A DNA stretch of 64,000 nucleotides from Arbacia lixula (Eukaryota; Echinodermata; Echinoidea; Arbacioida; Arbaciidae), in assembly GCA_963669155.1 (NCBI GenBank), contig OZ022597.1, positions 13,274,826-13,338,825 of the forward strand, given 5' to 3'. The first letter of the stretch is position 1; every line of letters starts with the position of its first letter. Under the pieces are notes generated by a model, which searched no databases, had not been told where the DNA came from, and worked only from the letters and a program-made list of their open reading frames with translations. The translations under genes were made by a program, and so were the position numbers. Positions 231 to 46,000 of the stretch are shown in pieces.

Positions 231-834
231 GGGGGGTATTCCGAAAACTAACTTAGGAAAAATGTTATTGTATCTCAGGGACTTAGGAAAAAATTTATCT
301 TTTGGTATTCCGAAAAGCCAACTTACAATAAAAGATAAAAATTTTATTCAAATGAGCTAGAGATAAAATTTGTATGTAAATGAGCCTCCGAGATAAAATT
401 TTTATGCACATGAGCTAAATCGGTATTCTGAAACGCACTTAAGAAAAAAAGTTAGGATAAAAGATAAAACTGCTCCCAAGCAATTTTATCTCCAGACGTA
501 CGCGCCTAGGCCCATACCATTACGTGCAAAAATAATTCGCGCATTCAACTTTTTGCTCATGTGCGCATCAAATGCAATAAGGCGCGCTGATAGACATTGA
601 TGCGCAATGTCCCTTTCAGTTTCATGACATCACACCATCAGCTTGATGGTGTTAATGTATGCAAAAGACATGAAAGGACGTTTATTACTGGCTGCCTCTG
701 GGACATGAGCGCAGGGCATGCGCTCATTAACATTGGTTAAAATCTTCCTAAAATGTTTTTCGGAATACCAAAGATAAAATATTTTAAGGACATTGTATCT
801 TTTTTATCTCTGTGGATTTTCGGAATACTGCCCC
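231..834. mobile_element. Foldback element, family T, copy 1
   Basis: The left end reads GGGGGGTATTCCGAAAAC and the right end TTTTCGGAATACTGCCCC, which are inverted repeats. The inside is rich in short AAAGATAAAA / TTTTATC modules. It is followed 26 bp later by a second copy in the same orientation. No protein-coding capacity. Confidence 0.7.
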
Positions 835-860
835 AGGTCGCCGGACGTCACGTGATGTCT

Positions 861-1460
861 GGGGTGATATTCTGAAAACAAACTTAGGAAAAATTTTATC
901 GTATCTCAGGGACTTAGGAAAAAATTTATCTTTTGGTATTCTGAAAAGCCAACTTACGATAAAAGATAAAATTTTTATTCAAATGAGCTAGAGATAAAAA
1001 TTTTATGTAAATGAGCCTCGGAGATAAAAATTTTATGCAAATGAGCTAAATCGGTATTCTGAAACGCACTTAGGAAAAAAAGTTAGGATGAAAGATAAAA
1101 CTGCTCGGGCTAGGCCCATAGCACTATGTGCAAGAATAATTTGCGCATTCAACTTTTTTGCACATGGGCGCATCAAGTGCAATAAGGCGCGCTGATATAG
1201 GCATTGATGCGCAATGTCCCTTTCAGTTTCATGACATCACGTCACACCATCAACTTGATGGTATTAATGTATGCAAAAGACATGAAAGGACGTTTATTAC
1301 TGGCTGCCTCTGGGATAGGAGCGCAGGGGGTGCGCTCATTAATATTGGTTAAAATCTTCCTAAAATATTTTTCGGAATACCAAAGATAAAATATTTTAAG
1401 GACATTGTATCTCAGGGGAGATAAAATTTTTATCTCTGTGGATTTTCGGAATACCGCCCC
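861..1460. mobile_element. Foldback element, family T, copy 2
   Basis: A near copy of 231-834 in direct orientation, ending in TTTTCGGAATACCGCCCC. The two copies are highly similar across their length, including a shared block with ATGCAAAAGACATGAAAGG, so either a segmental duplication or two independent insertions produced the pair. A diverged fragment of the same family lies near 50840-51345. Short ORFs inside are chance. Confidence 0.7.
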
Positions 1461-2506
1461 AGGTGTCTGAAAATTATGTTAATCATATATTCATGATCGA
1501 TCTTAACTCTCACTTATAAAATATGGTAATTAATACACGATGTCACGTGGGTGCATAAACCAATTAATGCTCGAGCTCAGTACAGTGGGCTATTTTGGAA
1601 CTGAAATTTTCCTTCTCTCTCGCATACGTATATACTGAACCATCGAACACTGCGTAATGAGTGCTTCTATAATGCAGAGCATTTTGTCTTCATCAGCTAC
1701 GAGGCCCTGACATTTCGTATATACCCGGCTCGCTGGCGCGGGTAACCAGCCTTCATGTTGCTATATAGCAGATGTCAACGTCTTTCGCTTACAAGGACAG
1801 TGAACCGATATTTTGTTGCACCAATCCGAGCGGCTGTTTTTCGACGAATGCTTCATTGTTTCACCACGTAAAGTCCTACGATTTTCCGCTCTACGGACTG
1901 TACAGCACGATTATTTGCCTGCCGTTTCATCCAACTTCTGTACAGAATTTGCGCGAGCTAGAACGCCAGGACGACCACGATTTGTGATCTGAACTACAAC
2001 TTCATACTGCAAGTCAGCTCATCTGACGCCGTGTCACAGAGCCAGCGGACTTGTTTAAGAACTTTTATCGACCGAACATCGCCCTGCTGTCGTTGAATTT
2101 CAGCAGGGATGGACTCATCTGAACACCGAACTTTCGCCCAGCTCATCTGGACTATTTGCACTGAGCCTCGCGTTATTTAGCCCACACATAACTCACGCGG
2201 ACTATTTAATTTGGTGAGATCGTTCACATCACTGCATTGATGATGTGATTTGTGTATATGAATCAACTGTTTATTGTTTATGTCATTTCGAACGTTGTTA
2301 GCTTAACGTAAGCACTTTATGACCGACATTTTTGACCGCTAGCCTACAGTTAATTGGTTGTATCTTAACTGTGATTTTGCATTGTAAACCTATGTTACAC
2401 CGATTTGGTGACAAGTGACGTTTACTTATTTAGTGAAATCAACGGTTCTCTGGTTAATTCCGATATTATTTGTAGCATGATATAAGAAATAAGATTACTT
2501 AAGTTA
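1461..2506. other. Unassigned DNA, possible old LTR or repeat
   Basis: No exon or known repeat was recognised. Together with 4216-4790 it was one block before the Tc1 element landed. The joined block has an AATAAA (near 4430) and a TATA-like stretch, which could fit a solo LTR, but no terminal TG..CA pair with a target duplication was found. Short ORFs here show no known family. Confidence 0.3.
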
Positions 2507-4213
2507 CAGTTGTCCTCAAAATTATTCATACCCTTGTTAATTTTTATGATTTTTTATTTTTGTGATGAAATGAATGCATTTTGTCAAGTGTGTATATCAG
2601 TTATATGTGACCAACATGTGAAAGAATAACAACAATACACAATTCAAGAAATTCATCATTTCAGGGGTTTTTTATTCATGGATTTTCAAAAAATGCCATG
2701 TTCAAAATTATTCATACCCTAGGTTTACTGAGTCCAATGTCTTTCTTTAATAGTCAATAGCATAGCCTTTATTTCTTATGACTGCTTCTAGACGGTTCTT
2801 GTACGTGTCCACAAGCTTCCTGCATGTCTTCTGGGGGATGTTGGCCCACTCTTCCTTGGCAAAAGCCTCAAGCTGGGACAGGTTGGTTGGTTTCCTAGCC
2901 AACACTCTGGTCTTCAAGTCTCGCCACAAGTTCTCAATTGGATTCAGGTCAGGACTCTGACTTGGCCATTCGAGGACGTTGACATCATTGTCCTTGAACC
3001 ATTTCTTCACTACCTTGGCGGTGTGTTTTGGATCATTGTCCTGCTGGTACTTCCAATTAGGGCCAAGCTGGAGTTTCTCAGCGGATTCCTTCACGTTTTC
3101 ATCAAGGATCGTGATGTAATCCTCCTTTCTCAAGATTCCTTGGACCTTGACGAGGTTGCCTGTGCCACTGGAAAAGAAGCATCCCCATAGCATTATGTTT
3201 CCACCACCATGCTTGACGGTGGGCATAGTGTTCTTTGGAGTGTATGCTTCTCCTTTTTTCCTCCAGACGTATTCAACATCCATATGGCCAAATAACTCCA
3301 ACTTTGTCTCATCAGACCACAGGATGGTTGACCAAAAGCTGGAATCTTGCTTTAGATGACCTTTAGCAAAGGCTAGGCGAGCCTCCAGATGCTTTTTCCT
3401 GAGCAGCGGGGTCTTCCGAGGCCTACGTCCACGGAGACCTCCTCTGTGCAAGACTCGCTCAATAGTGGACCGTGACACCTTCGTCCCTGCCTGGTCAAGC
3501 GTTCGAAGTAGGGCCTTGGTTGTGGTCCGGGGGTTGTTGTTGACCTCTCGGCAGATTTTCCTGGCAAGTTTGGGAGACACCTTTCTCTTCCTGCCACGCC
3601 CACAGAGGTTTTTAACAGTACAGTATTGAACTTCTTGTGCTTGTTGATAATGCTCTGCACGGTTGCTACAGGGACATCATATTGCTTCGAAATGGCCTTA
3701 AAACCCTTTCCTTCAATGTGGGCACGCACAAGACGTTGCCGTAGGTCCTCACTGAGCTCCTTCTTCTTGGCCATGATGATCAGAAACTGAGAATGACCAG
3801 AACACGTTTCCTCTATTTAAAGTCTTATGGAAAGATGCTATGTGTTTGACAATAGTTTAACATTTGGTCAACAAAAAAGGTATTTAATCCATTGGAACAT
3901 CTTGAAATAACTATAGGACAAAGATTAACACATTCTCAGGAAAGGAAAACAATGAATACTATGAAGAAAGAACATTTTTGTTGAGGTATTGTCAGGGGTA
4001 TGAATAATTCTGAACATGAGGGAAAAATAACTTTTGGACTTATCTATTATTATGCAAATGAAGTTTAGCCAACTCATATGTGGATTTGTGCATAGCAACA
4101 AGTAGACAAAAGATACACAGGAAGTACCAACATAATAGCTTTTACAAAGGAAGAATCTAACAAAGACTGTTACTGTATTTTCAATGGGGTATGAATAATT
4201 TTGAGGACAACTG
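2507..4213 (-). mobile_element. Tc1/mariner (Tc1-like, DD34E) transposon
   Basis: The ends are perfect inverted repeats starting CAGTTGTCCTCAAAATTATT, and each is flanked by TA (2505-2506 and 4214-4215), the Tc1/mariner target duplication. A second, inner copy of the repeat (TTCAAAATTATTCATACCCT) sits near 2701-2720, with its partner near 3992-4012. This is the IR/DR arrangement of Sleeping Beauty-type elements. The 1707-bp size is normal for the family. One transposase gene lies on the minus strand and is broken by a frameshift. Confidence 0.95.
2747..3774 (-). pseudogene. Tc1-like transposase, frameshifted
   Basis: Cut-and-paste transposase of the Tc1 family. The N-terminal part (start at 3774, MAKKKELSEDLRQRL) holds the paired-type helix-turn-helix that binds the inverted repeats. 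The C-terminal part ends at 2747 with IRNKGYAIDY. The catalytic triad is visible: D in LWSDETK, D in QQDNDPKH, and E in LNPIENLW, with 34 residues between the last two (DD34E). The two parts lie in different frames, and the shift falls near 3610, in the linker that carries the GRGRK-type basic motif. The reading frames are otherwise open, so the copy is fairly young but cannot make an intact enzyme without frameshift correction. Confidence 0.93.
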
Positions 4214-5214: not shown

Positions 5215-5776
5215 CCTCAAATGACCTTTGCTCTTATCCTGTGACCTCCAACGGTACCATAACATGAAGGTACCCCCAGTGCATCTATGACCCAAGTTAG
5301 GTTGTAATCCAAGCAACCTATGTGAAATTATTTGTCAAAAGAGTCTTGCAGGTAAACTTTAACGTATGACCTCAAATGACCTTTGACCTTATCCTGTGAC
5401 CTCCAACGGTACCATAACATGAAGGTACCCCAGTGCATCTGTGACCCAAGTTAGGTTGTAATCCAAGCAACCCATGTGAAGTTATTTGTCAAAAGAGAGT
5501 CTTGCAGGTAAACTTTAACGTATGACCTCAAATGACCTTTGACCCTATCCTGTGACCACCAACGGTACCATAACATGAAGGTACCCCCAGTGCATCTATG
5601 ACCCAAGTTAGGTTGTAATCCAAGCAACCTATGTGAAGTTATTTGTCAAAAGAGAGTCTTGCAGGTAAACTTTAACGTATGACCTCAAATGACCTTTGAC
5701 CTTATCCTGTGACCTCCAACGGCACCATAACATGAAGGTACCCCCAGTGCATCTATGACCCAAGTTAGGTTGTAAT
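5215..5776. repeat. 155-bp tandem repeat array with nuclear-receptor half-sites
   Basis: About three and a half units. Most units carry TGACCTCAAATGACCT directly followed by TTGACCT, so TGACCT half-sites stand in DR4 and DR1 spacing, with a fourth TGACCT about 9 bp on. The array resumes at 6810 after the inserted element. Confidence 0.85.
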
Positions 5777-7477: not shown

Positions 7478-8116
7478 AGGGCCCCTGTCATCAAAATGTA
7501 TGTTGAATTCTATTGATGCAACTTAATATGTATATAATCAAATCACTAACTGTTCAATGGAAATATGTTTCCTATATTTTAAAATATTTTTTCTATATTT
7601 TTTCTCAGCCTTGATAAGCCCCGCCTCCAAAATATCCTCCAACTCAAGATTCCCCCTGTGACATCAGAGGTAGAAATTAGCAGGATAATAGAAATAATTT
7701 ATGCACAAACTAAGCATTGCAATGACTACCTGCAAGTGCTTATAATAGCATCACATAGCTAGCACATTTCTGACATAAGGAAACGATTATTCCCACATGA
7801 AAGGTTGTTAGATGGTATTATGTGAAAACATGTGATGCTGTTGTGGACAGGTGGAGGTAGTCATTGCAATGTTTAATTTGTGCATAAATTCTGCTTATTA
7901 TCCTGCTAATTTATACCTTTGATGATGTCACAGGGGGAATCTTGAGTTGGAGGATATTTTGGAGGCGGGGCTTATCAGTGCTGAGAAAAAAAAAGAAAAA
8001 TTATTTTAAAATATAGGACACATATTTCCATTGAACAGTTAATGATTTTGTAATGTACATACATGTATTATGTTGCATAAACATAAGTCGACATACATTT
8101 TGATGACAGGGGACCT
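7478..8116. mobile_element. TTAA foldback element, family D, copy 1
   Basis: The ends AGGGCCCCTGTCATCAAAAT and ATTTTGATGACAGGGGACCT are inverted repeats, and the element is nearly palindromic overall (GATAAGCCCCGCCTCC in both arms). It is flanked by TTAA at 7474-7477 and 8117-8120. Unit 2 of the host array (8988-8998) shows the empty site GACTTAAAACTT. Confidence 0.92.
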
Positions 8117-8382
8117 TTAAAACTTATTTATCTTTGACTCATTCAAATAAATAAATCCTCTTTCCTTGTCATTACGTATGCGACTTTATCGCAAGTCCGT
8201 TTATACGTGTACAATTACATTGATACAGACTTTTCTTCACAAAATTATCTTTTGTATCAAGCCAGTAATCTGACTAAACAACGTACGCCCTGTGCGCATG
8301 TATGTACACGTACACAAATGCACTGTAAATCCACACTGAACTACTTCCATGACCTCATTTATCTGAGAGGTTTATGCTTTAA

Positions 8383-8917
8383 AGATTGTCCGTCCCTTAA
8401 TTTTGCAAGCTTAAAATTTGAAATCGTCTATCACGATCGTAAATTGAAGAAAGTGTGATTCAAGACCATTCCTAAGAATATAGCATGTTGAAGCTTTCTG
8501 TATAGGCCTATGTAAAAAATTTCAGCCGTTAAATTTCAAACCGACTTTTTTCGTACTACGAAAAAAGTATTAGTCTTTGTTACAGTATCTATGTGGTTTT
8601 TATGCGTGTGTGAAATCCTAATTTCATGAGTAACTACCAAACTTTGGAGATGATTCCTTCCATAGAATACATGTATTTTTTTCATAATGCGTTTCATAAT
8701 TTAATAAACAGATTAATCAATAAAGCAGATATTTGAACACAAACTGCTAAGAGCCTGAGGTAAAGACTATTAATCAGACATTGTTTACGTGCATCATTTG
8801 AATTTTACACTACGTATCAGTTTCAAATTGTGAATATAGAGCTTGCTAACACTTCTCTATATGTTTTGCCTATGTTTCGATGGTTTTGTGGTGATCTGAA
8901 AAAGGGACTGGCTGTCT
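8383..8917 (+). mobile_element. TTAA element, family G, copy 1
   Basis: It starts AGATTGTCCGTCCCTT and ends AAAGGGACTGGCTGTCT, flanked by TTAA (8379-8382 and 8918-8921). The interior has the palindrome TTTTTTCGTACTACGAAAAAA. Other copies are at 38957, 53876 and 58500. Noncoding. Confidence 0.92.
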
Positions 8918-10471
8918 TTAATAATTACTTCTTGACCTCTCTTTAGTAACATAACTTTGCTCTCAGTTTATATTTCCACTGAGCTTTGACTTAAAACTTA
9001 TCTTTGACTCTTTCAAATAAATTAATCCTCTTTCATTGTCATTACGTATGCGACTTTATCGCAAGTCCGTTTATACGTGTACAATTACATTGATACAGAC
9101 TTTTCTTCACGAAATTATCTTTTGTATCAAGCCAGTAATCTGACTAAAAAACGTACGCCCTGTGCGCATGTATGTACACGTACACAAATGCACTGTAAAT
9201 CCACACTGAACTACTTTCATGACCTCATTTATCTGAGAGGTTTATAGGCTTTAATAATTATTTCTTGACCTCTCTTTAGTAACATAACTTTGCTCTCAGT
9301 TTATATTTCCACTGAGCTTTGACTTGAAACTTATTTATCTTTGACTCATTCAATCAAATTAATCCTCTTTCCTTGTCATTACGTATGCGACTTTATCGCA
9401 AGTCCGTTTTTCCAGGGCTCGCAGCGTGATTACAGCCGACTCGACTCGTGCATGCTCGCACCGCAGTGAATGGGATTTTTTTTGGAAACACCTGCCATTC
9501 TATTACCCGAACTCACTCCCTCGTACCGTCGTCCGAATAGCCTATGTACGTTACGTACCCGAGTACAACTTCAGGGGGGTAAATGCGATGGGAGAGTTTT
9601 CGTAAACAGATGCAATGGACATTCCATTTATTGAACTCAATCCCTCGTATTATTGTGCCCTTCGTGTCAACGTATGTACATCGAAGTAAAGTTTACAGCG
9701 GGGGGAAAGTTTCGATACAGGCTGTTACATTACACGCAATGTGCCATTGCGGCTATTTTCCAAGTGCGATGTTTCGGCTCGTTGATCTAGATTGTGAATG
9801 AATACGAGCGAATGATTTTGTTTCGAGTTTATCGATTTACGTTTGAAGAAAAATAAATTGTCTGGCTTTATTCGAGGAAGCGAAAAAATATTTGAAACAT
9901 GACAAAAAGGGCATTAGGCCATATGGTCTTTTCCAGTTTCAGCAGGTGAAAATGGACATTCCGTTTCCCCATAGACTTTGTGTAGTGGTACATGAAAAAG
10001 TTTACACAAAAAGTCAATACGCATTGAGTAGCGATGTTAAAATTTGTATCAGCCACTGTACCAACAACTCATTACAATCCACTTCAATCGGATCAATCGG
10101 CGCACAAAAAAGATTTTGACAAACACATTTGACATAAATACATCCTCACCTTTCACATTAATAGCATTTTGTCACTATTGAATGGAATGTTGGGTAATTT
10201 GGGGGGGGGGGGGGGGGTTGACATCGTTCTGATCAGTCAACGACTTTTTCCCATCCGCCATTATTCGAAAACGCAATGTCTTCAACGTAGAAGGCAGCAA
10301 CACACGTCTGTGTTCAAAGCCGTATGTACATACGCTATGTGCATGTTTTCCATGCGGCCGACCCCGGGCCGCGCGAGGCCAGGGTGAGGGGTACAATCGA
10401 GTGCGCTGGAGTCGAGTGCAGTCTGATTAGGCAGCTTTCTAACGCGAGACCGAACGTCGAGCTACTACGAG

Positions 10472-24017: not shown

Positions 24018-24435
24018 ATGCCCAGTCACATATAGCCGACGCATGGCCAACGCACTGAAAAATTGGCAAAAAATGGAAAATAAGATGAGTGCGTCGTTGT
24101 GCGCCAAACTTCTGTCAAGATTTGGACAGAGGCTAGCGAATGTATAACGTGTTGGTAACGCGCTGTGCGTATCCTGGGCTGGTATATAGCGAATACAGGA
24201 CGCATACAGAGCGTATACATGAAATACCGCAACGAATGCATCGCGTATTGCTAGCGCGTTGAGCGAATGGCTACCGCCCAACCAGCGCATGCAGAGCGCG
24301 TCCAGAACTCATGCATCTCGTTCTCAACGCAAAGCCCGCGAAAAACAGCGGCCATGTGAATGCCTATATATGAAATCTTGCGTATGATTTCATATCAAAA
24401 TAATTGACGCGCCGAGAGTACACAACCTCTTCACG

Positions 24436-25659
24436 ATGCCACCCAAAAAAATACACCCACTATCCATGAAACCCAAGAAGAAGACACCGCTTGCTCCTGT
24501 CGTTGGTTGCCGCGCTCGTAGAGGCAAGTGCAAACAAAAAGAGATTCCCAGCCTGAACCCTCAGATACAGAGACAGGATCCTGAAGAGCCCAGCCTGAAC
24601 ATTGAGATACAGAGACAGGATCCTGAGGAGCCCAGCATGAACCCTGAGATACAGAGACAGGATCCTGAAGAGCCCAGCCTGAACATTGAGATACAGAGAC
24701 AGGATCCTGAGGAGCCCAGCATGAACCCTGAGATACAGAGACAGGATCCTGAAGAGCCCAGCCTGAACATTGAGATACAGAGACAGGATCCTGAGGAGCC
24801 CAGCATGAACCCTGAGATACAGAGACAGGATCCTGAAGAGCCCAGCATGAACCCTGAGATACAGAGACAGGATCCTGAGGAGCCCAGCATGAACCCTGAG
24901 ATACAGAGACAGGATCCTGAGGAGCCCAGCATGAACCCTGAGATACAGAGACAGGATCCTGAGGAGCCCAGCATGAACCCTGAGATACTTAGACAGGATC
25001 CTGAGGAGCCCAGCATGAACCCTGAGATACAGAGACAGGATCCTGAAGAGCCCAGCCTGAACATTGAGATACAGAGACAGGATCCTGAAGAGCCCAGCCT
25101 GAACATTGAGATACAGAGACAGGATCCTGAGGAGCCCAGCATGAACCCTGAGATACAGAGACAGGATCCTGAAGAGCCCAGCCTGAACATTGAGATACAG
25201 AGACAGGATCCTGAAGAGCCCAGCCTGAACATTGAGATACAGAGACAGGATCCTGAGGAGCCCAGCATGAACCCTGAGATACAGAGACAGGATCCTGAAG
25301 AGCCCAGCCTGAACATTGAGATACAGAAACAGGATCCTGAGGAGCCCAGCATGAACCCTGAGATACAGAGACAGGATTCTAGGGAGCCCAGCATGAACCC
25401 TGAGATGCAGAGACAGGATCCCAAGGAGCCCAGAATGAACTCTGAGCCGCCTAGCCTGGAGCCTGAGCTACACAGCCTGGGCTCTGTTGTTTCCGTTCAG
25501 GATGCTATCGAGGATGCTGCATCCCTTCCACCCTTATCCCTTACTCACTCGTATGCTGAGTCAGTAAGAACAAGAAGGCCAAAAAGGGCAACAAATTATC
25601 TGAGGAGGAGGAGAACTCATGGTAACTTTTCTAGAAGAAAACGAAATGATCTGGAATAA
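24436..25659 (+). CDS. 407-residue repeat protein inside the Harbinger element
   Basis: The product is unknown. The N-terminal 35 residues are basic (MPPKKIHPLSMKPKKK, CRARRGKCKQK). Residues 40-335 or so are 21 copies of a 14-residue unit of type IQRQDPEEPSMNPE, encoded by 42-bp repeats. Two variants alternate (SLNIEI and SMNPEI) in AB and AAB groups. The C-terminus is again basic (RTRRPKRATNYLRRRRTHG). It has no signal peptide or membrane segment. Autonomous Harbinger elements encode a second, Myb/SANT-like protein beside the transposase; this ORF is in the right place but shows no Myb domain. The last repeats diverge (QDSREP, QDPKEP), as expected at array edges. Whether it is translated is unknown; the frame could stay open because the unit is a multiple of 3. 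Confidence 0.6.
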   Translation: MPPKKIHPLSMKPKKKTPLAPVVGCRARRGKCKQKEIPSLNPQIQRQDPEEPSLNIEIQRQDPEEPSMNPEIQRQDPEEPSLNIEIQRQDPEEPSMNPEIQRQDPEEPSLNIEIQRQDPEEPSMNPEIQRQDPEEPSMNPEIQRQDPEEPSMNPEIQRQDPEEPSMNPEIQRQDPEEPSMNPEILRQDPEEPSMNPEIQRQDPEEPSLNIEIQRQDPEEPSLNIEIQRQDPEEPSMNPEIQRQDPEEPSLNIEIQRQDPEEPSLNIEIQRQDPEEPSMNPEIQRQDPEEPSLNIEIQKQDPEEPSMNPEIQRQDSREPSMNPEMQRQDPKEPRMNSEPPSLEPELHSLGSVVSVQDAIEDAASLPPLSLTHSYAESVRTRRPKRATNYLRRRRTHGNFSRRKRNDLE

Positions 25660-27958: not shown

Positions 27959-28563
27959 ATATACGTACCTTTACGGTTCTTGCATCGCAATGCATGGCGG
28001 GACGGAATTCTAGTACGCGAGCGTTCAGCGATCGCTGCGGTCATATCGTTTACACGCTCATGACGCTAGCCGCGGCGAGCACGAAGTTCAATATTATTGT
28101 TTTTATGTTACAGATTTGTTATGTGGATCTGTTCCGACGTGAATACTTTCAGTAAATCTGAATCATATTTTAACGATAAGAATTTTGATTTGTATTATTG
28201 TACTTTTTATTTATTTAATTTAATTCTATTTAATTTCACACATCACATCACAACACACACATCTTTGCACATATGGGACTACCACCCATATCTCGACGTC
28301 TCGAATGTCACTCTCTTTGCTTATTATTTTCTCAACAAACTCTTTATGAATCATTTAGATACAATAATACGAATCAAAAGTTCTCATCGAAGAAATACAA
28401 TTCAGATTTACTGAAAATTATCACGTCGGAACCGATCAAAGTAACAAATCTGTAACATAAAAATGACATTGTAATCAATGACCGCAGCGATCATTGAACG
28501 CTCGCGTACTAGAATTCCGTCCCATAATGCCTTGCGATACAAGAACCGTAACGGTACGTATTG
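27959..28563. mobile_element. Long foldback element, family P
   Basis: The two arms of about 200 bp are inverted copies: GGGACGGAATTCTAGTACGC near 27999 matches inverted GCGTACTAGAATTCCGTCCC near 28503, and TTTTATGTTACAGATTTGTT also recurs inverted. The unique centre is about 28160-28390. ORFs within it are palindrome products. Confidence 0.8.
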
Positions 28564-29699
28564 CACTGAGATATGAAATTGGCCAAATATGAATTGGCGA
28601 GGCTTACTTCGAACCATCGGGTCTTCGCGTCGGGCCGCGTTATCGCGTAACCCGACCTTTCGTGAAAACAGCCACATTTATTTACGAAAGGTCGGGTTCA
28701 CCATTTGTGAAATATACCCGTTAAATCTACAAATAGTTGGGTCCATTAACCCGACTCTTCGTAAAATTTAGCCAGCAAATATACGAAGGGTCGCGTCCTT
28801 CACGCGCATTTCTACAACAAATAAATATGATGAAAAACGGCTTGAATAAAAACTAGCATTCAATGCACAAAGTCAGCCTTTGCCTTGAGAAGTCTAGAGG
28901 TGAGTACAGTTTAAATTTCGCTAAATTGTCGAAAAATGGAATTTATTTATGATATGTCATAGTGTTGTGGGAAATTTACTTTAATTCCTTAACATTTTGA
29001 AATAACTGACCTAGGTTGTATATCATGAGATTATGGTGTAATCAACTCCTGCACTTTAAAATTGTTTTCATCGTCGAGAGTTGAATTTCGGCTGAATTTC
29101 CCCCGACACCAACGCACACGCAACATCTTCCCCAGACTTTTGGGCAGATGTAGTCAATGCTAAGTTAATGTTGCCTGTGCCTCTAGCTCCGGGACTGCTC
29201 CCGCGCAGCGGGAGCCCGCTCACGCAGTGAGCGGGCTGGTCGCAGTAACTGTGCCTCTTGCACGTGTTTTGGTGATCGGCCATAGGCTAGCGAGTAGCGA
29301 GTAGTGCTTCCTAGTAGGGGTCCTTAAAAACTTTCATGCATACCCTTGATATTTCTGGACCAATGATTTATATATTTATTCATATTTGTTTGGGTTTTTA
29401 AAAATAGAACTTGAACTTAATTGAACTATGTAACTCTATGCAGGATATGGACTCGCCACTCACCAGAGTCAGACATGAGTAGATCTAACCTTCCCATTCA
29501 TTAAATGCCTCTCAATAGCCTAGAATGACAAGAATCACTATAAAAAGCACAAACAGTCGTGGGATTTTTTTATGTGATATAATTGTTTTTTTAAACGTTT
29601 TCTTCTAGATTATTCTACTACTTCGGCCTTATCATGCCATGGATCTATTGATCTGATGCTAGCTACTGAAGAGTGACGAGCAAAAAAAAGGGCAAAGGT

Positions 29700-31095
29700 A
29701 AGAAAAGAATCTAGACCTATATCTTTTCCAGAGGGGGGGGGGGGGGGGATTGAAAGTCATCTGATATAGATTTCCAGACACAGATTTTCCTTCAAAACTG
29801 AAATCTAATGTAGATGTAAAGTTTGCATGGTGTCAAACAGAGGCGTGGATCCTGGGGGGTGGGGCGGGGGGGCAGTTGCCCCCCCCCCCCCCCCAAGAAA
29901 ATTTCGGGAGGCAAAGATACCATTTTGCCCCCCCTCCCCCAATAATTTCCCAACAAAAAAAAAAAAGAAAAAAGAAAGAGAAAGAGAATAGAAAGGAAAA
30001 GGAAGGAAGGTAGTGAAATGAAAGCGTAAAACAAGAAAAAAGAAAGAAAATGGGACATTGGGAAGCGTTCGCTCGCTTCGCTCGCTCACATTTAAGTATC
30101 TTAACCAATGCTGATGATAATTACTATTCTTATGAAAGGAAATCAGTTTGCATCTTCTGTTTCCATCTAATGTTATACTATTCTTCTACTCATAGGAAGT
30201 AATATAACCAAACAAGATATCACTCCCAGAAATCGAGCGGCCAGTTCACCTAAAAAATAGATAAACTTTCAGGAGATAACGGCCTGGATTTAAAAAAAAA
30301 AACGCAAAACAAAAACACATTCTTCAAGATGATTTCGGGCAGCAAGTAGCTTATTGTAGCAGCGAGATTCCAAAATATTATATTTAGGCAGCAAGGTGGG
30401 TGACAAAGATTTTGGGACGAATCCATATAATTTTGCCGGGATCGCTGGCTTTGCTCGCTATGGTAGAAAGAGAATGGATTCGGACTGCAAGCGAGGTAGC
30501 TATTATAAAACAGTTTCATATTCGTCACACAGGTGATTGAATGTATTATTGAGATATCATACAGGCATGACAGGTTTATTCTGATGATAATGATAATAAT
30601 ATCACATTTTTATCACATTATTATGATGACAAAATAACACTTCTATCGTATGGAAAAGGGTATATTTTTCCTCGCTCACTGCGCTTGTTCGTTTCATATT
30701 AATGGTTTTGAAAGCAAACAAATTCAGTGAGATGAGACCGAAAAGATAATGTAGATGTTTCATTGGCTCACAGCGCAATTTGCCGAAGGGTTTACTACAT
30801 CTACCATAAAAGACTGTGTGCTTCCTCACTCGCTTCGCTCGCTCATAATATTAAAGAACAGAGTGGTGTGGGGGCAGCAACAATGGACCAGCGATGTGAC
30901 AAAATAGAGTTCATATGTAGCAGCAAGGTAACCATGTATATATATAAATACATTAGGTATCATTTATGCGTATATGAACACTAAACCCTTCTCTCATAAC
31001 AAGAATTTTTTTATTTTTTGCTTGCTCGCTTGGGTTCATTTCCGCTTGGTTGTCTTGCCCCCCCCCCCCCCCCCCCCCAATCCGAAAAATGGATC
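29700..31095. repeat. Low-complexity repeat with TCGCTTCGCTCGCTCA motifs
   Basis: G/C runs at 29733-29748, 29866-29894 and 31059-31078 bracket modules with CGCTCGCTTCGCTCGCTCAC (30067), CTCGCTTCGCTCGCTCATAA (30826) and weaker relatives near 30440 and 30670. The reverse ORFs at 29792-30108 and 30250-30528 read through this repeat and are not genes. Confidence 0.6.
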
Positions 31096-31458
31096 GACGT
31101 GTCTGGTGTCAAAGGAAATGTAATGTGGATACATGAAGCAGCCTGGAGAACAGGGGGCACCTACACTACAGTATCCAGAGGGAATAATAATTGATACCTC
31201 CCTTGCTCTCTAGTCTTATTCATTTTAGAGGAACAATGCTCAGGCTGACAGTGAAACTACAGAAGAATTTTAGATGGTGGTTTGGCAATTAGGATGGGGT
31301 GCAACCATTTCTTTTCACATTATTTGCTTAACTTTTTTTAAACCAAAAAATTAGTAATGGGTAGGGAGGGGTATTAGTGACTAGCTTCACTGGACACCCT
31401 AGACTCTGTAGAGCCATCTTTACAAAATTGAAAAATATTTTCTTACTTTATTAGCATC

Positions 31459-33433
31459 ATGGATTGCCCATCTGATATGGATTGCTCATCCGATGAGGAA
31501 GGAAACATTTTACCAAACCTTAGCTGCTCAAGAGCAGGAACAGAGCAAAGGTAAGAATATCTATTTTTCTATCAATTTTCTATCTTAATATCTAGAATAC
31601 TTTATCCAACAATCCAGAAAAACAATTTTTAAGAAGTTATCTCTCAGTATGCAGTTTGGAATCAAGGAAAGATTTTTTTTATTTTAAACAGCTCTAAACA
31701 GAAAGAGAAAACTTGAAGGGAAAATATATAGGCTTCCACCTTCCATTCAATCACTGATTGACTCATAATATTAATCATCAAACACATTCTACTTCCTGGA
31801 TCTTTTCATTCTGAAGCAAACTTGTAGCAAGTATGGTCAGAATGGTTTAATTTCTTTTCAACTTAACAGGGGGTGGATATATATGTATTTGTTGCGATTT
31901 TATATGCTTTTTAGCTCACAAATGTTTAAATCCATACTATTTAGCAAATGTTTGATCAAGTTTTGGTTTGTACTTAGCAAGTAAATGGCTTCAAAAGTGA
32001 ACTTAAAGTCTAATCTTTTGTTTTGTTTTGTTTTGTTTTGTATACTACTTCAACACTCTTATCTGATGACAACAAAGAGATAGATCTAGATGACATGCCA
32101 AGCTGCTCTACTGCATGACTTCAGAAAAGGTAGAAATGTATCGCTTTATCTCTAAATTATTGAAGTTTCCAGCTACCACAGATCACTTGTGAGTAACTTT
32201 GAGATTTACTGCAAAATATATCTCCCAAATTAAGTGTTTGGTTATGGGAACCTGGTGGTCCCTGCATCAAGCATATGGGAAATACAAAGTTAAATACTCA
32301 ACAGGTTAACTTACTCTTTTGAACACACGAATCATTGCCAAATTATTAATGAAAGTAAATATGATATTGGAGGAATGACCTTTATTTAGAATATATCTAT
32401 TCCAACGGGACAATTGAAATGTAATGGAGTAACTGAATGTGTCATCTGATTACTGTGATGTGGTATATTGGCCCTCCCATTTCCTGAAACAGGCAAGATA
32501 AGCAAGTTCTTATACATGTATTTCTTTTTCTGGATGTCTTGTACAACATTCCATTTAGATAATAAACTTGAACTGACAGCATTATTATGGATAGGGGGGA
32601 TACTAGGGGAAAAGAATTGGTTATCGATGTCACCCGTAATAGAATATTAAAATGTAAAGGGAATATGTGTTCTATATTATGTTTGCAGAACTGCACGTAT
32701 GAAGTTCAATACACTTTAATAGAATTTGTTTGTTTCTGTCACCAGGTCTCGGCCAGAGTTCATTCAGCAGAATGAACCGAAGCATGTGAAGACAGCCAAC
32801 AGCCAGTTTGAATGTACATGTATGCTCTATCGGGAGAAATGGCATGCCATCAAAGCCAGCAAAGCTTTCTTCAGGGATAGCACAAGTGTAGCTTCACTGA
32901 TGCTATCCACAGCTACCAAGGTAAACGCTGGTGTTCCAGTAGCATGTGACAATGAATTCGCCTTTCTTGTGGATACTTCCAGTCTTGAATTTGACCAGGA
33001 CCTTACATGCGACGAGACCGGCAAATACAAAAAAAACAGTTATTCCCGATGCGAGTTGGCCGTGGATGGTGAACACAACATATTTGGGTTGAAAATGGGT
33101 CCCAAGACTGGTACTGAAAGATACACACTTCTCCGGAGGTATTATTCCCACCGTGATACCTTTGGATTTTTCAGGACAATATATGAGCTACAAAGGGATG
33201 GAGTGCAGAAATGTCCAGTCGTCTTAATACGATATGAGTGGAGAGGACAGAAGACAGCATTAAGAATGACGGCTCATTGTCACTGCAGACAGAATGATAG
33301 CCCCTTCATCCGATCAAAGAAGGCCTTGATTGAAGAACTGAAGAAGCCATCATGTCAGTCAGCACAGAACAAGCTGAACGAGAATTATAAATCTGTCTTT
33401 CGGATTATATCTAAACATACATTGTATGCCTGA
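31459..33433 (+). CDS. Two-exon gene, 259 residues, function unknown
   Basis: Exon 1 (ATG 31459, donor AG|GTAAGAATAT after 31550) encodes an acidic, Cys-containing leader, MDCPSDMDCSSDEEGN. Exon 2 starts after TTTCTGTCACCAG at 32746 and runs to TGA at 33433. The join is in phase and gives TEQRSRPEF. The main part has several Cys/His residues (FECTCMLYREKW, MTAHCHCRQ), a conserved-looking core (KAFFRDSTSVASLML, LVDTSSLEFDQDLTCDETG, YTLLRRYYSHRDTF) and a basic end. From memory it resembles the N-terminal region of long multi-copy invertebrate proteins that carry transposase-like domains further on, but I cannot confirm this. No catalytic domain follows before 36.8 kb. It may be a truncated transposon ORF within 28605-36981 or a small host gene. 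Confidence 0.55.
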
Positions 33434-36400
33434 GTAGCAATGTTAAGTTCATATTAAGTACATGACATAGTTGTTTTATATTTCACTTTTTTTATTGTTT
33501 AATGGATCTTGAGTGGTGTCCATCCATCTGGGATGGTAATGGAGACTTGATGGTTTGATCTTGAGTTTTGACCTTACTTGGAAGGTATATGATGGGGAAC
33601 CCATGCCAGAGTAGAAGGTTACCTCAAGGTCAAGGTACTCTACAGGAAGCATACACTTTTAGTTTTTTTTTTATTGTTGGGGTAGATAACTTCACAATAA
33701 ACCTTAAATGGACCTGTACTTGGTGAAAGCTAGGTCGTAGAAGTACATTTAAATAGGTTAGAGGTCAAATGAGGTCAACTGTATTAAAATTTACAAGCAA
33801 GCACACAAGCTAGGCAGTTAGACACATTATTGGACACATTGTTACACTTGTGACTTGACTGGTTACTAATATTTTTAGTCATTGTGTGCATGAGATTAGT
33901 ATTTGTAGCCTACATCATTTGTTGAAAAGCAGTTTTACTATTTCACTTCATTCTGACTTACTAGTACATGATTTAGCATTTTTAAGAAATGTGCATCTGA
34001 TTACAGACAGTCCATGTACAGACAGTCCATGATAATAAGGAGGGTGACTTTATATCAGCTTACTGGTCTGTCCACTGTCATGCTGCCCACAGTTGTTGTT
34101 TTTTTTTTTTTTTAATCAAATTACTTGTGGAGATATCATTTATGGCATGTTGCTAACCATACTAAAGTCCATGCTTGAAAGCATATTCCAGATCTAATCT
34201 TCAAATTTTGAACACTGATAGAAATGTCTGGTAATTCTAGAGGAGCAGGTTTACAAACAGGAGTAAAGAGCATTCAACAAATAGCAGTTTGATGTAAGTT
34301 TGAATGGAACTTCTATACTCTGTTAAATCATTTCTGCACATTTATGCACAGGTTTTAGACCACCTAATTAAGTTACAGTGTCTTTTGCAATTTTTCCATG
34401 AGCATTCAAACAAAAGCTCAAAATGTGATATATTGCTTTTAATTTATAGATTTCTATAGGGAATAATCAGCCAATATCATAAACTCCTAGCTCCTTGCAT
34501 ACAACCTTTACAACCGTTTCATGAAATTATGCAAAGACTTCATAAAGTTCTACAATTTACTTTGTTTCTTGTAATATTTGTTACTTGTTTTTGCTTGATT
34601 GGTTTTTGTTTATTTTTCACTTCTACTTGATGCCAGGCTGAATATCCCCTGTTATGCATTTAGAGTACTGTCTAAGTCTATGTCATTGCCTCCACCTGAT
34701 ACATGTATCTTTCTTAGCTGGTCAGATCCTTCATGAGTCTCTTAACGTTGGTGACAAGACAGATTGAAGTGAGAACATATTTAGTTTGCCTAATCTTGTT
34801 TAAAGTTCACCAACTCATCAGGTCTGCAGGTGCATGTGTTATTGGTCATTAATGTCAATGTGACAGGAAGGCTTTCTTTTAGTTGAGTTTAAATACTATG
34901 TTTTACTATTCTTTTAATCTTGCCAAGTTATGTAGATCATCAAAGATGGCTTTTGTTTCTGTGTTTGATATCTTAATGCCTCTGCCACTTGGTAAAGGCA
35001 GAGGCATTTTCATGCTTATTGTTCAATTTTTTGACTGTTAGAAAGTAGTTAACTTATAATATTCAACTGGACGATCACTAAATTATAATAACAGCATGGT
35101 GATTTTGGTATGGGGGAGGGGAGTAGTGGTGGCATCAAAGTTGCAATAAATGAAAAGGGAAAGCCCCCATTTGGGAGTGCAGGGTGGTAGAGGGGCTCTT
35201 GCAGTTTGCATTGTCACATATTTTTTTCTCTATGTATTAATTAGTCACTTTGCCCAAGCCAGAGCAATGTATATGCCCCCCCCCCCCTCCCTCTAACCTA
35301 CACCACTGCAGTAATTGCATATAACAAGTGACACATTTTCTTGATAACTTGTGAGATAAAATGAGATCTAACAGCATAGAGTTAATATAATTCTATGGAT
35401 CAAACATATACATGTGTGCATTGAGCATTATTGTAGCCAGGGGATGGGAGGGGGGCACATTGTGTCCCCTAGAGTCCTCCTGCACCTTAAGAGCATTTTC
35501 TAGTAAATTTGCTGACCTTTTCTAAAATTGTATAGGAAACAATTTGATGCATAACCATGATAACTTTGGTATGCCCGTCTTGCCTGATATCTTTTGTTGC
35601 CATGTCAACCATAATTGGCAGCCATGCCAAACAGAAAGGTTGTTTTTTTTTCTCTAATACCATTTCATTTGACAATGAATCCTTGGGTTTTACTGCTTCA
35701 GTTTTCTCAAGGGTCTAAATATGAAGTTATAATTTTTGAAAGGGTTATAAATAATTGTACATGTGTATATGATTTTCCCTTTTCTCTTGTGAAGAAAACA
35801 TTATACAATCGATATGAAATAATTTTGATAAAAGAATTTTAAGTTGTATACAGAAAAGAACAATTTTAGCCCATTTTATTTATTTCTTTATGTTCCGAAT
35901 AACACCCCACTTTTTGACCTTTCCAAACATCAACCTCATTGAATCAAACTTAATGGCAAACATGAAAGTATAACTTGTGATGACGGACAAACTTGATTGC
36001 ATGCAGCAGGAATCCCTTTGTTTTGGTTTACTTTTTCTTGTTGATGTTTTATGCGTTAAAATGAAACTTTCATGTTCTACTTTTCTGCAAATAAATGTGA
36101 TGAAATAATCACTGAAACTTTTGATGGCGAGTTCTGTGCACAATTTGTCCTTGTCGGTGTATGACGAGTAGAAAATACAGTCATGGCAGGGAGGAGGTGA
36201 CATTAAAAGAAAATAGCTCGAAATTCTATTAAAAAGCACAATTGATATTAAACAACAACTATTTAGGTCGAATGGTCAGACAAACAGAGCTGAATAGCAC
36301 TGGACCAACTTGGGGAGTAGCTGAAATTGATAACTGCAATGGTACGATGTGATGATATATCTATAGACCAAGGGTCATTGGACAAACTTAAGTCTGGATA

Positions 36401-36765
36401 AAACTAAACGGCTTGCCATGGATTAATTACGTAGGCCTCTAAAACAATGAATAGGGGCGGCGCCAGGATATTTTGAAGGGGGGGGGGGACCCATACACGA
36501 CTACGTTTTAAATTGGAAAATAAGGGTATATTACAATTACATAACTCGTACAGCCCTCTTTTTCCCCGTGTCTTTTTTACGCCTTTATATAAACAAAACA
36601 AAAAAATATGGAGGTATTATATAGTTCCATTACCCAGTCCTTCCTTTCCCCATCATGCTTTATTTTTTTTTCCTTGTTCAGCCTTGTTCTTCTCTCTCTC
36701 TCTCTCTCTCCTTTTCTCCTCCCCCTGCTCCCTATAAGGGCGCCGGCCCCTACGTCTTAAATGGT
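33434..36765. other. AT-rich DNA, no gene seen
   Basis: It contains a perfect 12-bp-stem hairpin at 34975-35008 (AATGCCTCTGCC / GGCAGAGGCATT), a C run at 35275-35286, G runs at 35448-35456 and 36478-36488, and (CT)n at 36693-36710. Short ORFs (35487, 35615, 35880, 36513) are unsupported. Confidence 0.6.
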
Positions 36766-37378
36766 TTTAGAATGATTTTACCCGATGCTTCGTAATTTGA
36801 AGGTACCTTTTTCATAAATGTTCACGTAAAGAATTAGTCTTATGTCAATGACCACCATTACAAAAAATAACATTTTTTCCACCTGATTTACCCGACCTTT
36901 CGTAGATAAAGGGGCTGTTTTCACGAAAGGTCGGGTTACGCGATAACGCGGCCCGACACGAAGACCCGATGGTTCGAAGTACATACATGGATGTAAGCCA
37001 ATTGGCGATAACGAACATGAATGAATGAAGTGTAATAAATAAAGCTCACGTAAGAAATAAGTAGAGAGTCCAATGATGATGTGTGATGATGTCAACGAAA
37101 GAAGGGGCTCACGCTATGGATGATGATGCGGAGACTTTTGAGTCGCGACTTCAGGAACGTGGCTGAAGAGCCGTGAAGTCTCCTGTCGGGAGGCACGTGT
37201 TGTCTCGTACCGGAGCGAAATTCTGGGAGATGCTGACTCGAACCAAGATGATGCGGGAGTGATGATATATGATACGGTCTTTAGGCCCATGTGTGCCCGA
37301 CCGTATCGTCGCTCGGTGGAAATTTCCGTTCACTACCATCGGGGCATTACACAATACCAATCAAATAATATAAATATA

Positions 37379-43058: not shown

Positions 43059-46000
43059 CTAGAACTGGATCATTTGTCCCTGGAGGTGACAAGAGAAGAT
43101 ATAAGATTACATTTAAAATAAGATGACTGTGTAACAGAACATAAAGGAAACCACGCACAATAAAACATGAGAGGAGAACAAGTTCATTCCAGGCCTTACA
43201 AATCTATGTGTGTGGGTATGCAATGCAAAATACATGTACATTGAGAAATGTCACAATTGATAATTTTCTGCAAAGTTACACCATTGTTAAAATCCCAGCT
43301 GCATTGGTGAAAGTTTAAATAATTTGACAAAATTTGAAAGTGCTTGAGTGTTTTTTTTTTTTTTTTTAAAGTAAGAAAGGGCAGTGCTGCTTTGCTTTGC
43401 ATCGTTAAATTAACATGCCATTGATTTGAGATTTTACAACGCTCCTATGACAGGTTTATCTATCGCTAACCCTCCGTAATTTAACCCTATATAGCCCGGG
43501 CTATTTTGAAATCGCATAGCCCGGGGGGGGGGGCAAAAACAGCCCCCCCCTAAGATCTCGACCGTTGATCGCGCGATCGCGACGAAAATTGGCACGTACG
43601 TCACCGATGCCGTAATCTCCACAATTAAATTGTCAATTGCACCAAAATTATTCAAATTTATTTTTAATTAATTAATTATGCTAATTAAATGCATAAAAAT
43701 CATAATTTGGTTGTAAATCTTTAAATATAGCCCCAAAACTGCTAGATATCAGTCCAGACACTCTTCTTAGGATTATTATCAAATTAGGATTCTAAAAAAT
43801 GGCAATATCAAAGTTTTTCTTATGTATTTTATTGTTTTTTTAATTTCTTATGTATTTCTTTGTTTTTTCGACTTTATGTTTTGCATTGTTTTTTCGATGG
43901 AAATTGTTAGCAACACTATTTCAGTCATAAATAACATGAAATCTATTGTTTTTCATCAGTAAAAATAGATATAATGATACATTTATGAATTTTGGCTAGA
44001 TACAGAATTTGCATTGGATTTGTACATGAAATCACGTTTTTGAGCAATTTTGGGTCTGACATGCACGTACAAAATGTTACGTAACTTCGGAACCGTGTAC
44101 CCCCGCGTCGCAAATTTGGTCTTAAAAGTTGCGTGAGACTTGAAGGAAAAAAGTCATGAAATGTCGCGGCGCGATCTTTTCGCGTTACAAATTTATTGCG
44201 AAAAATGTCGAGGGGGGGGCTGTTTTTGCCCCCCCCCAGGCTAGATAGGGTTAAGGCATACCCTTGGGTGTTCACAAACACAGATTTATAATAGAACTGA
44301 TCAATTGATCCCGACAGCAGAGGGAAAACATGAAAATTCACTCGCAGGAGCTCCTTCTAACTAAATATCGACAGCATGCAAAGCATTGTGCTGAAGAAGT
44401 ATACTTTAAGGATGAAGCCCCCCCCCCCCTCCTCCCCCCCCCCCCTTCTATGTGGGGGCTTAGGTTCCCAGAGACCTCATGTAATACAAGAAATATACAA
44501 TGCTGACAGGGGCCCTTTGGTGCTATGTGGGAGCTTAGGTGCCCCATACGTTACAAGAAATATACAATGTTCATGTGGGCCCTTGTGGGGGCTTAGGCGC
44601 CGAGAACCCCCATGGATGTAATTCTTTGACTGCCCGGTGGCACCTACCTTCCTCTTCTTGTCTCCACCCAGCTCAAAGTGCTTGCACCTCTTGATGGGCA
44701 GCTGCTTGCGGAATTTGCACTCGGCGCACTCCATCCTCAGCACAATCTTCTTGGTGGTCTTAGCCTGGAGAGGGCACCAGAGCAAGAAAGTAGTCCAGGT
44801 CAATAAACAAGCATGTTTCCTCTCAGAATAAGCCGTTTTCATTTTGTATTCCCAACTTGCCCCCTCACTGCCTAGAAACATGATTATATTCATCCAGGGT
44901 GGTCCCAAGAGAATCTTTTAACCCATTTCTTACTAAGCCTGCAGATAAGCGGGCTGGCTTTTCTCCACTCAGATACTAAGCAGCGTGACTCTGGTGTAAT
45001 CTGCTTCAATGACAATAGCTGACGGGGGGGTGTTTCACCAAGCTGTTCGTAAGTTACGAACGACTGGTGATCCCTTCTTGTGCTAAATCTGATTATCACT
45101 GAACAAAGTGTGGTATCGCATTTCGCACAAGAAGGGATGACCAGTCGTTCGTAACTTACAAACAGCTTGGTGAAACACCCCCAGGTTTTGTATAAACTTC
45201 CAATTCCTCATAGGGTGCAATTAAGCCACACTTCTTTGGTGACTGCAGTTCCATGGCAAACGTTGACATCCTAACTGGTGCAGGCAGGGAAAAAATTCAT
45301 TCAAAATTTTCGGGGGCTACTTCTTGAGCACATTGGTCAATTTGGGTACAACTTTCCATTGAATCTATGGGAATTTTCAAGGCTCTTTTAACATTTTCCA
45401 GGGATCTTTTGAGCACTTTGGGGGCAAAATCGCCCCGCGCCCCCGTGTATTTTTTCCCTGGGTGCAGGGCTTTAACCCTTTCAGTACCAAGCCGTAAAAT
45501 TCCTACAGAGTTATTAACCTTCTACACTTACATTACCAGCACTTGAAAACCCAACTGGCTTACTACATGTACACATCTGCATGGCAATGGAAATGAGAGG
45601 GTTAACCCTTACATTACCAGGCCTTGAAAAAGCACCTGCATTTGCATGTTAACGCAAGTGGTGAGAGTTAATAAAACCATGGTACTGGTCAAGAGGCTTT
45701 TGCCATTTTGCAAAATATTGGTTGCTTTATATGGTTGTAATCATGGCAGCCTATGTTTAGAAGGCACTATTCAGTTCACAACTTTTTCCTGAATAATTCA
45801 TGATAGGCAGACAGGTTTTCATAGCCATGAATACACGAAGCCATTTTATCTGGTCAGTATTCATTCTACTGATTTTAATTTGCTTAGTAATTGCTTCATA
45901 TCCTCCCGGTCCCCCATGGTTACAAACACCAAAAGCTGTTTAAACTACACTCCAGCTCAAAGGAATTGGCATAGGGAAAGGGAAGGAGCCGCAGTTTTAA

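Follow-up and report, generated by a model that had tools for sequence, protein, structure and literature searches.

A probable Mutator-like transposon of low copy number with an internal deletion in the genome of Arbacia lixula

The element and its surroundings

The window (the whole 64,000-nucleotide stretch of Arbacia lixula DNA that was analysed) contained an element that, after comparison with other copies in the genome, spanned 28601-36999 (8,399 bp). Both sides were flanked by the 9-bp target-site duplication AATTGGCGA, at 28592..28600 on the left and 37000..37008 on the right, and both were confirmed against the other copies. The left terminal inverted repeat (TIR) was about 98 bp long (28601..28698, plus strand) and identical in eight of the 10 complete copies; the right TIR, placed by the same comparison, lay at 36890..36999 on the minus strand. 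Aligned copies set the left tip at 28601 (GGCTTAC..., beginning GGCTTACTTCGAACC) and the right tip at 36999 (...GTAAGCC). Within the window, positions 28605-28697 and 36890-36981 matched each other as inverted ends at 95.7% over 93 bp (E 2e-36). A private 14-bp insertion at the tip of the right TIR (36982..36995), without counterpart in the other nine complete copies, explains why the sequence-only reading, which had placed the ends at 28605 and 36981, stopped short of the true borders; the inverted ends that it recognised are real and recur genome-wide.

The same reading had noted subterminal repeats in both orientations, and these were recovered as the motif ACCCGACCTTTCGT. Two exact copies were found in the left end (28650..28663, plus; 28684..28697, minus), followed by two subterminal copies with two mismatches each (28749..28762, plus; 28783..28796, minus), so that four exact or near matches in a palindromic arrangement lay within 200 bp of the left tip. 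The right end carried two exact copies (36890..36903, plus; 36923..36936, minus), with a further copy at 36780 on the plus strand that had three mismatches. Elsewhere in the window the motif was matched only once, at position 1705 and with three mismatches.

Between the ends lay the remnant of a gene on the plus strand. Its first exon (31459..31550) contains the ATG, encodes an acidic stretch and was found in four of 14 copies (the window copy, C2, C21b and C14). Its last exon (32746..33433) encodes the N-terminal region of a Mutator-like element (MULE) transposase up to about 33383 and closes with a short novel tail and a stop, both of which result from a deletion described below. Read as two exons (31459-31550 and 32746-33433), the gene gives the 259-amino-acid product previously described for a single spliced gene at 31459-33433, but this reading skips a small acidic middle exon at about 32046..32129 (plus strand), which was missed earlier and emerged from comparison with other copies. 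In the window the acceptor AG of the middle exon is gone, whereas all nine other copies with the site keep it, and the window copy alone has an in-frame TGA there (32116-32118), seen in no other copy covering the place. In C2, the small acidic exon was present three times (about 3625-3715, 5430-5510 and 6200-6275 in C2-copy coordinates), apparently duplicated in frame. The product had also been described as Cys/His-containing; the HCHC stretch is present, but it is partly a private mutation, since all six other copies covering it read HGHC. The 259-residue product matched no Pfam model at E 10, its best match among PDB sequences had an E of 0.19, and tblastn against phage records found no relative. 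No confirmed relative emerged from viral contigs either, whether the query was the N-terminal protein, the transposase core or a two-sequence alignment.

Several other features were observed in the window. A separate, MITE-like inverted-repeat element at 27961-28561 ended some 40 bp before the left border of the main element and had 84-bp arms at 90% and inner 87-bp arms at 84%. A Tc1-type transposase (HTH_Tnp_Tc3_2, DDE_3, HTH_SB) at 2747-3816 on the minus strand was split over two overlapping frames and is therefore apparently broken. On the plus strand, a 423-amino-acid open frame (24388-25659) was built around a 42-bp unit repeated in tandem about 21 times and matched no Pfam family over its cut-off, and on the minus strand an open frame at 44477-44917 matched ribosomal protein L44 (6.7e-10), possibly as a processed copy. 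Neither Rfam families nor tRNAs were detected in scans of the window.

Copies in the genome and a shared internal deletion

The left end served as query against the source genome of the window (607 Mb in 590 contigs); the counts that follow are lower bounds. At least 24 matches were obtained (E 9.6e-42 to 5.2e-33), of which 20 paired up to give 10 complete elements of 5.4-25.4 kb on contigs 2, 8, 9 (two), 10, 12, 14, 19, 21 and 22 (the window copy). A further four ends (contigs 1, 15, 21 and 59) stood alone, with no partner among the matches, which brings the family to about 14 insertions. All 10 complete copies had TIRs of about 95-98 bp. The 9-bp target duplication was perfect in eight of them, including the window copy; C19 matched at eight of nine positions and C10 had an 8-bp duplication. 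As all 10 duplicated sequences differ, the copies represent separate insertions.

When the genome was searched with the last exon of the window protein, 13 matches were found (86-100% identity), all inside copies of the element family. Every complete element carried a piece of the gene, although C12 had only 37 amino acids of it; because the 20 paired ends bound gene-bearing elements of 5.4 kb or more, the end is not a short repeat that occurs without the gene. On the left side, mean pairwise difference rose from 0.41% in the TIR to 0.6% at element positions 99-200 and 1.2-1.6% at positions 201-500. On the right side, where all complete copies but C9a were used (nine of 10), the TIR differed by 1.3% and the adjoining 2.8 kb of interior by 1.8-3.2%; gapped cells were excluded throughout. 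Conserved ends with drifting interiors would fit a requirement that the ends work at each move.

Two members of the family, C2 and C15, both carried one nested insertion of 11.5 kb with 14-bp ends (CATGGGCGGAAATC/GATTTCCGCCCATG), flanked in C2 by a 7-8 bp duplication and hAT-like in form. A family member apparently moved with this insertion inside it.

Alignment of the window copy to C2 located the deletion that shaped the window gene. At 33382..33384 the window jumps from C2 position 7517 to 10340 with a 3-base overlap, so that about 2.8 kb of the C2 transposase is missing, and the tail past the junction does not continue the transposase. The suggestion that the segment could be a truncated copy was accordingly borne out. 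Five of the 10 complete copies (the window copy, C9a, C9b, C8 and C10) have the identical junction, for which the simplest reading is a single deletion, after which the deleted form multiplied.

The transposase and a relative on contig 18

In C2, the frame of the window protein runs on beyond the point at which it ends in the window, into a core followed by a C-terminal part, and is broken by one TGA and one TAA. The core gave three matches to Mutator-type Pfam models: Mutator (PF20700; E 3.3e-4, 20.2 bits against a cut-off of 26.5), MULE (PF10551; E 5.7e-3, 17.5 bits against 27.6) and Transposase_mut (PF00872; E 0.035, 13.4 bits against 21). As all of these core scores fall below their cut-offs, the lineage is divergent. 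The C-terminal part of C2 weakly matched SWIM (E 0.083, 12.9 bits against 19.6), a zinc finger that is common, but not universal, in MULEs. Pfam matches were weaker when the C2 read-through was used as query (7.7e-4 for Mutator, 0.02 for MULE), and no FLYWCH match was listed for it at E 5. Among solved structures the core matched only 6xg8 (E 0.0097), an IS256-type 'Mutator family transposase' from a bacterium. A single-sequence structure model of low confidence (mean pLDDT 34) was set aside.

Searching the genome with the core piece recovered only C2 and C15 as family members, both broken, and no intact autonomous copy was found in this genome search. C1 and C14 had C-terminal pieces only. 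The same search also returned a short fragment on contig 15 at 6574522 (52 amino acids, 50%) and a distant relative on contig 18. There, 4554043-4556622 (718-3297 of the extracted locus) holds an open MULE-like transposase frame of 860 amino acids, which matched the C2 read-through at 23% over 591 amino acids (E 2e-30) and the window protein at 21% over 162 amino acids (E 7e-6), each E value being for one comparison. Its match to the Pfam MULE-type model reached 20.7 bits against the cut-off of 27.6. No second copy of the frame turned up in the genome. The 9.9 kb surrounding it contained no long pair of TIRs, and a single AT-rich pair of 18 nt (89%) on either side of the frame was taken as chance. 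A two-sequence profile of C2 and the contig-18 protein, run against the PDB, matched 6xg8 at E 0.057, with an unrelated lipoprotein at the top (0.0083).

The catalytic residues of MULE DDE transposases follow the order D-D-(C/H)-E. This order was present in both C2 and the contig-18 relative, in which D309, D377, C400/H403 and E514 (numbered by the C2 protein) are conserved, and was absent from the window copy, where the region is deleted. A scan of the genome with PF10551, in which 31 candidates were scored, gave 12 other matches, seven of them above the cut-off, and did not list the element family. The C2 and contig-18 profile was run on two of these 12, both from contig 12; one of them was weakly matched, at E 2.9e-5 for a search restricted to two sequences, and the other gave no match. 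Both contig-12 proteins are MULE-derived by their Pfam match and SWIM-type by reading.

The continuation of the frame in C2, together with the matches of the contig-18 protein to both the core and the window protein, identifies the 259-residue product as mostly the N-terminal part of a MULE transposase and not a separate accessory protein. The sequence-only reading had offered an accessory DNA-binding protein as one possibility. We rejected this, including in the form of an accessory zinc-finger protein, as the frame runs on into transposase in C2, the product has no Pfam match and its HCHC stretch is partly a private mutation. The N-terminal region matches no Pfam model, and so none for FLYWCH, FAR1, CCHC or C2H2.

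Origin of the truncated copies and comparison with known systems

Taken together, the segment very probably belongs to a low-copy family of MULE cut-and-paste transposons and is a non-autonomous member with an internal deletion. It had been proposed as an undescribed or unrecognised DNA transposon; a DNA transposon it is, but an undescribed kind is not supported, since the target duplication, TIRs and transposase all point to MULEs. On good but not complete evidence, the element represents a new family within this known superfamily, and among the literature matches listed we found nothing on it. A Tc1/mariner origin was also considered. These elements duplicate a 2-bp TA target; here, a TA lies inside the conserved TIR tip and the actual duplication is 9 bp, so the element does not belong to that group.

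If the truncated frame encoded an N-terminal-only protein, selected as a KP-like repressor or accessory binder that occupies the TIR repeats in competition with the transposase, the spread of one junction to half of the complete copies would be accounted for, as would a last-exon frame that is still open in three of these five (the window copy, C9a and C8) and the changes in C9a, which relative to the column majority are three synonymous and no replacement. Against this, the window copy has two synonymous and 11 replacement changes and C8 one and seven, stops or frameshifts interrupt the frame in C10, C21 and C9b, and exon 1 with its ATG is missing from C9a, C9b, C8 and C10. Summed by hand over 11 copies, there were 14 synonymous, 38 replacement and four stop changes, that is, 14 against 42 (1:3.0), compared to about 136:500 sites in the longest copy (1:3.7). 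These counts leave out the last 16 codons (the new tail), gapped codons and the single extra base of C9b, and the few changes common to two copies were counted twice. Judged by these substitutions, the last-exon frame appears on the whole to be in neutral decay, and we consider a selected repressor very unlikely.

Two further explanations would change the identity of the element itself. In a Pack-MULE, the 259-residue product would derive from a captured host gene fragment; gene capture is known for MULEs, as described in the part of PMC8277862 covered here, and the contig-18 relative lacks long TIRs nearby. However, that relative is itself a MULE-like transposase with the same N-terminal region and core, and in C2 the N-terminal region is continuous with the core, so the gene is the element's own and capture of a host gene is highly improbable. 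An undescribed DNA-transposon superfamily outside Mutator could be argued from a core that is below all Pfam cut-offs and an N-terminal region with no Pfam match and nothing below E 0.19 in the PDB. This, too, is very unlikely, given the 9-bp duplication, the TIRs of about 95 bp, three sub-threshold Mutator-type Pfam matches together with that to 6xg8, and the conserved D-D-C/H-E order. A more elaborate proposal stays within MULEs: the family and the contig-18 gene might belong to a deep, undescribed clade that has an N-terminal DNA-binding fold of its own. Such a clade would once have given rise to a host-domesticated protein of 860 residues, and its truncated copies would encode a repressor consisting of the N-terminal region only. 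We regard this combination as unlikely.

For the internally deleted MULE copy that we favour, the following course of events is proposed. A full-length transposase would bind the palindromic repeats in the TIRs, putatively through its N-terminal region, cut both ends and insert the element with a 9-bp stagger. The catalytic core was lost while the ends were kept, probably by incomplete gap repair at the 3-base microhomology, and deleted copies such as that in the window may then have been moved in trans. The leftover 259-residue frame would be a relic of the transposase N-terminus that is now drifting neutrally.

MULEs are described as rare in animals, with a median number of 0 across 100 animal genomes in the covered part of PMC8277862. 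The family described here adds about 14 MULE insertions in one animal genome; its transposase escapes the Pfam cut-offs, and the family clearly illustrates that a fragment of a transposase can be mistaken for a new protein gene. The contig-18 gene, with its open frame of 860 residues, is a candidate domesticated transposase.

Deletion derivatives with intact ends that are mobilised in trans include the P-element KP, maize Ds and non-autonomous Mu elements. The window copy resembles these in its internal deletion with the ends kept, but differs in that one end is disturbed by the 14-bp insertion and in that there is no evidence of a selected repressor function. The bacterial protein 6xg8 is a weak sequence match to the catalytic region, but comes from a bacterial insertion sequence. 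Phantom, a MULE group of invertebrates, has a FLYWCH finger in some members, not all, and the present element has no FLYWCH match; likened by description only, both are animal MULEs, and the element fits the target duplications of 8-10 bp and TIRs of 18-613 bp given for Phantom in the covered part of PMC6446971. In that source the word echinoderm occurs once in the main text, in section 5, and does not appear in the table parts covered. Compared to the animal MULE/MuDR elements it describes, the present core falls below Pfam cut-offs and the N-terminal region matches no Pfam model. The element is like them, as far as the covered part of PMC6446971 goes, in its 9-bp duplication (8-11 bp in MULEs), its long TIRs, its DDE transposase with weak MULE, Mutator and SWIM signals, and the broken or deleted copies that accompany it.
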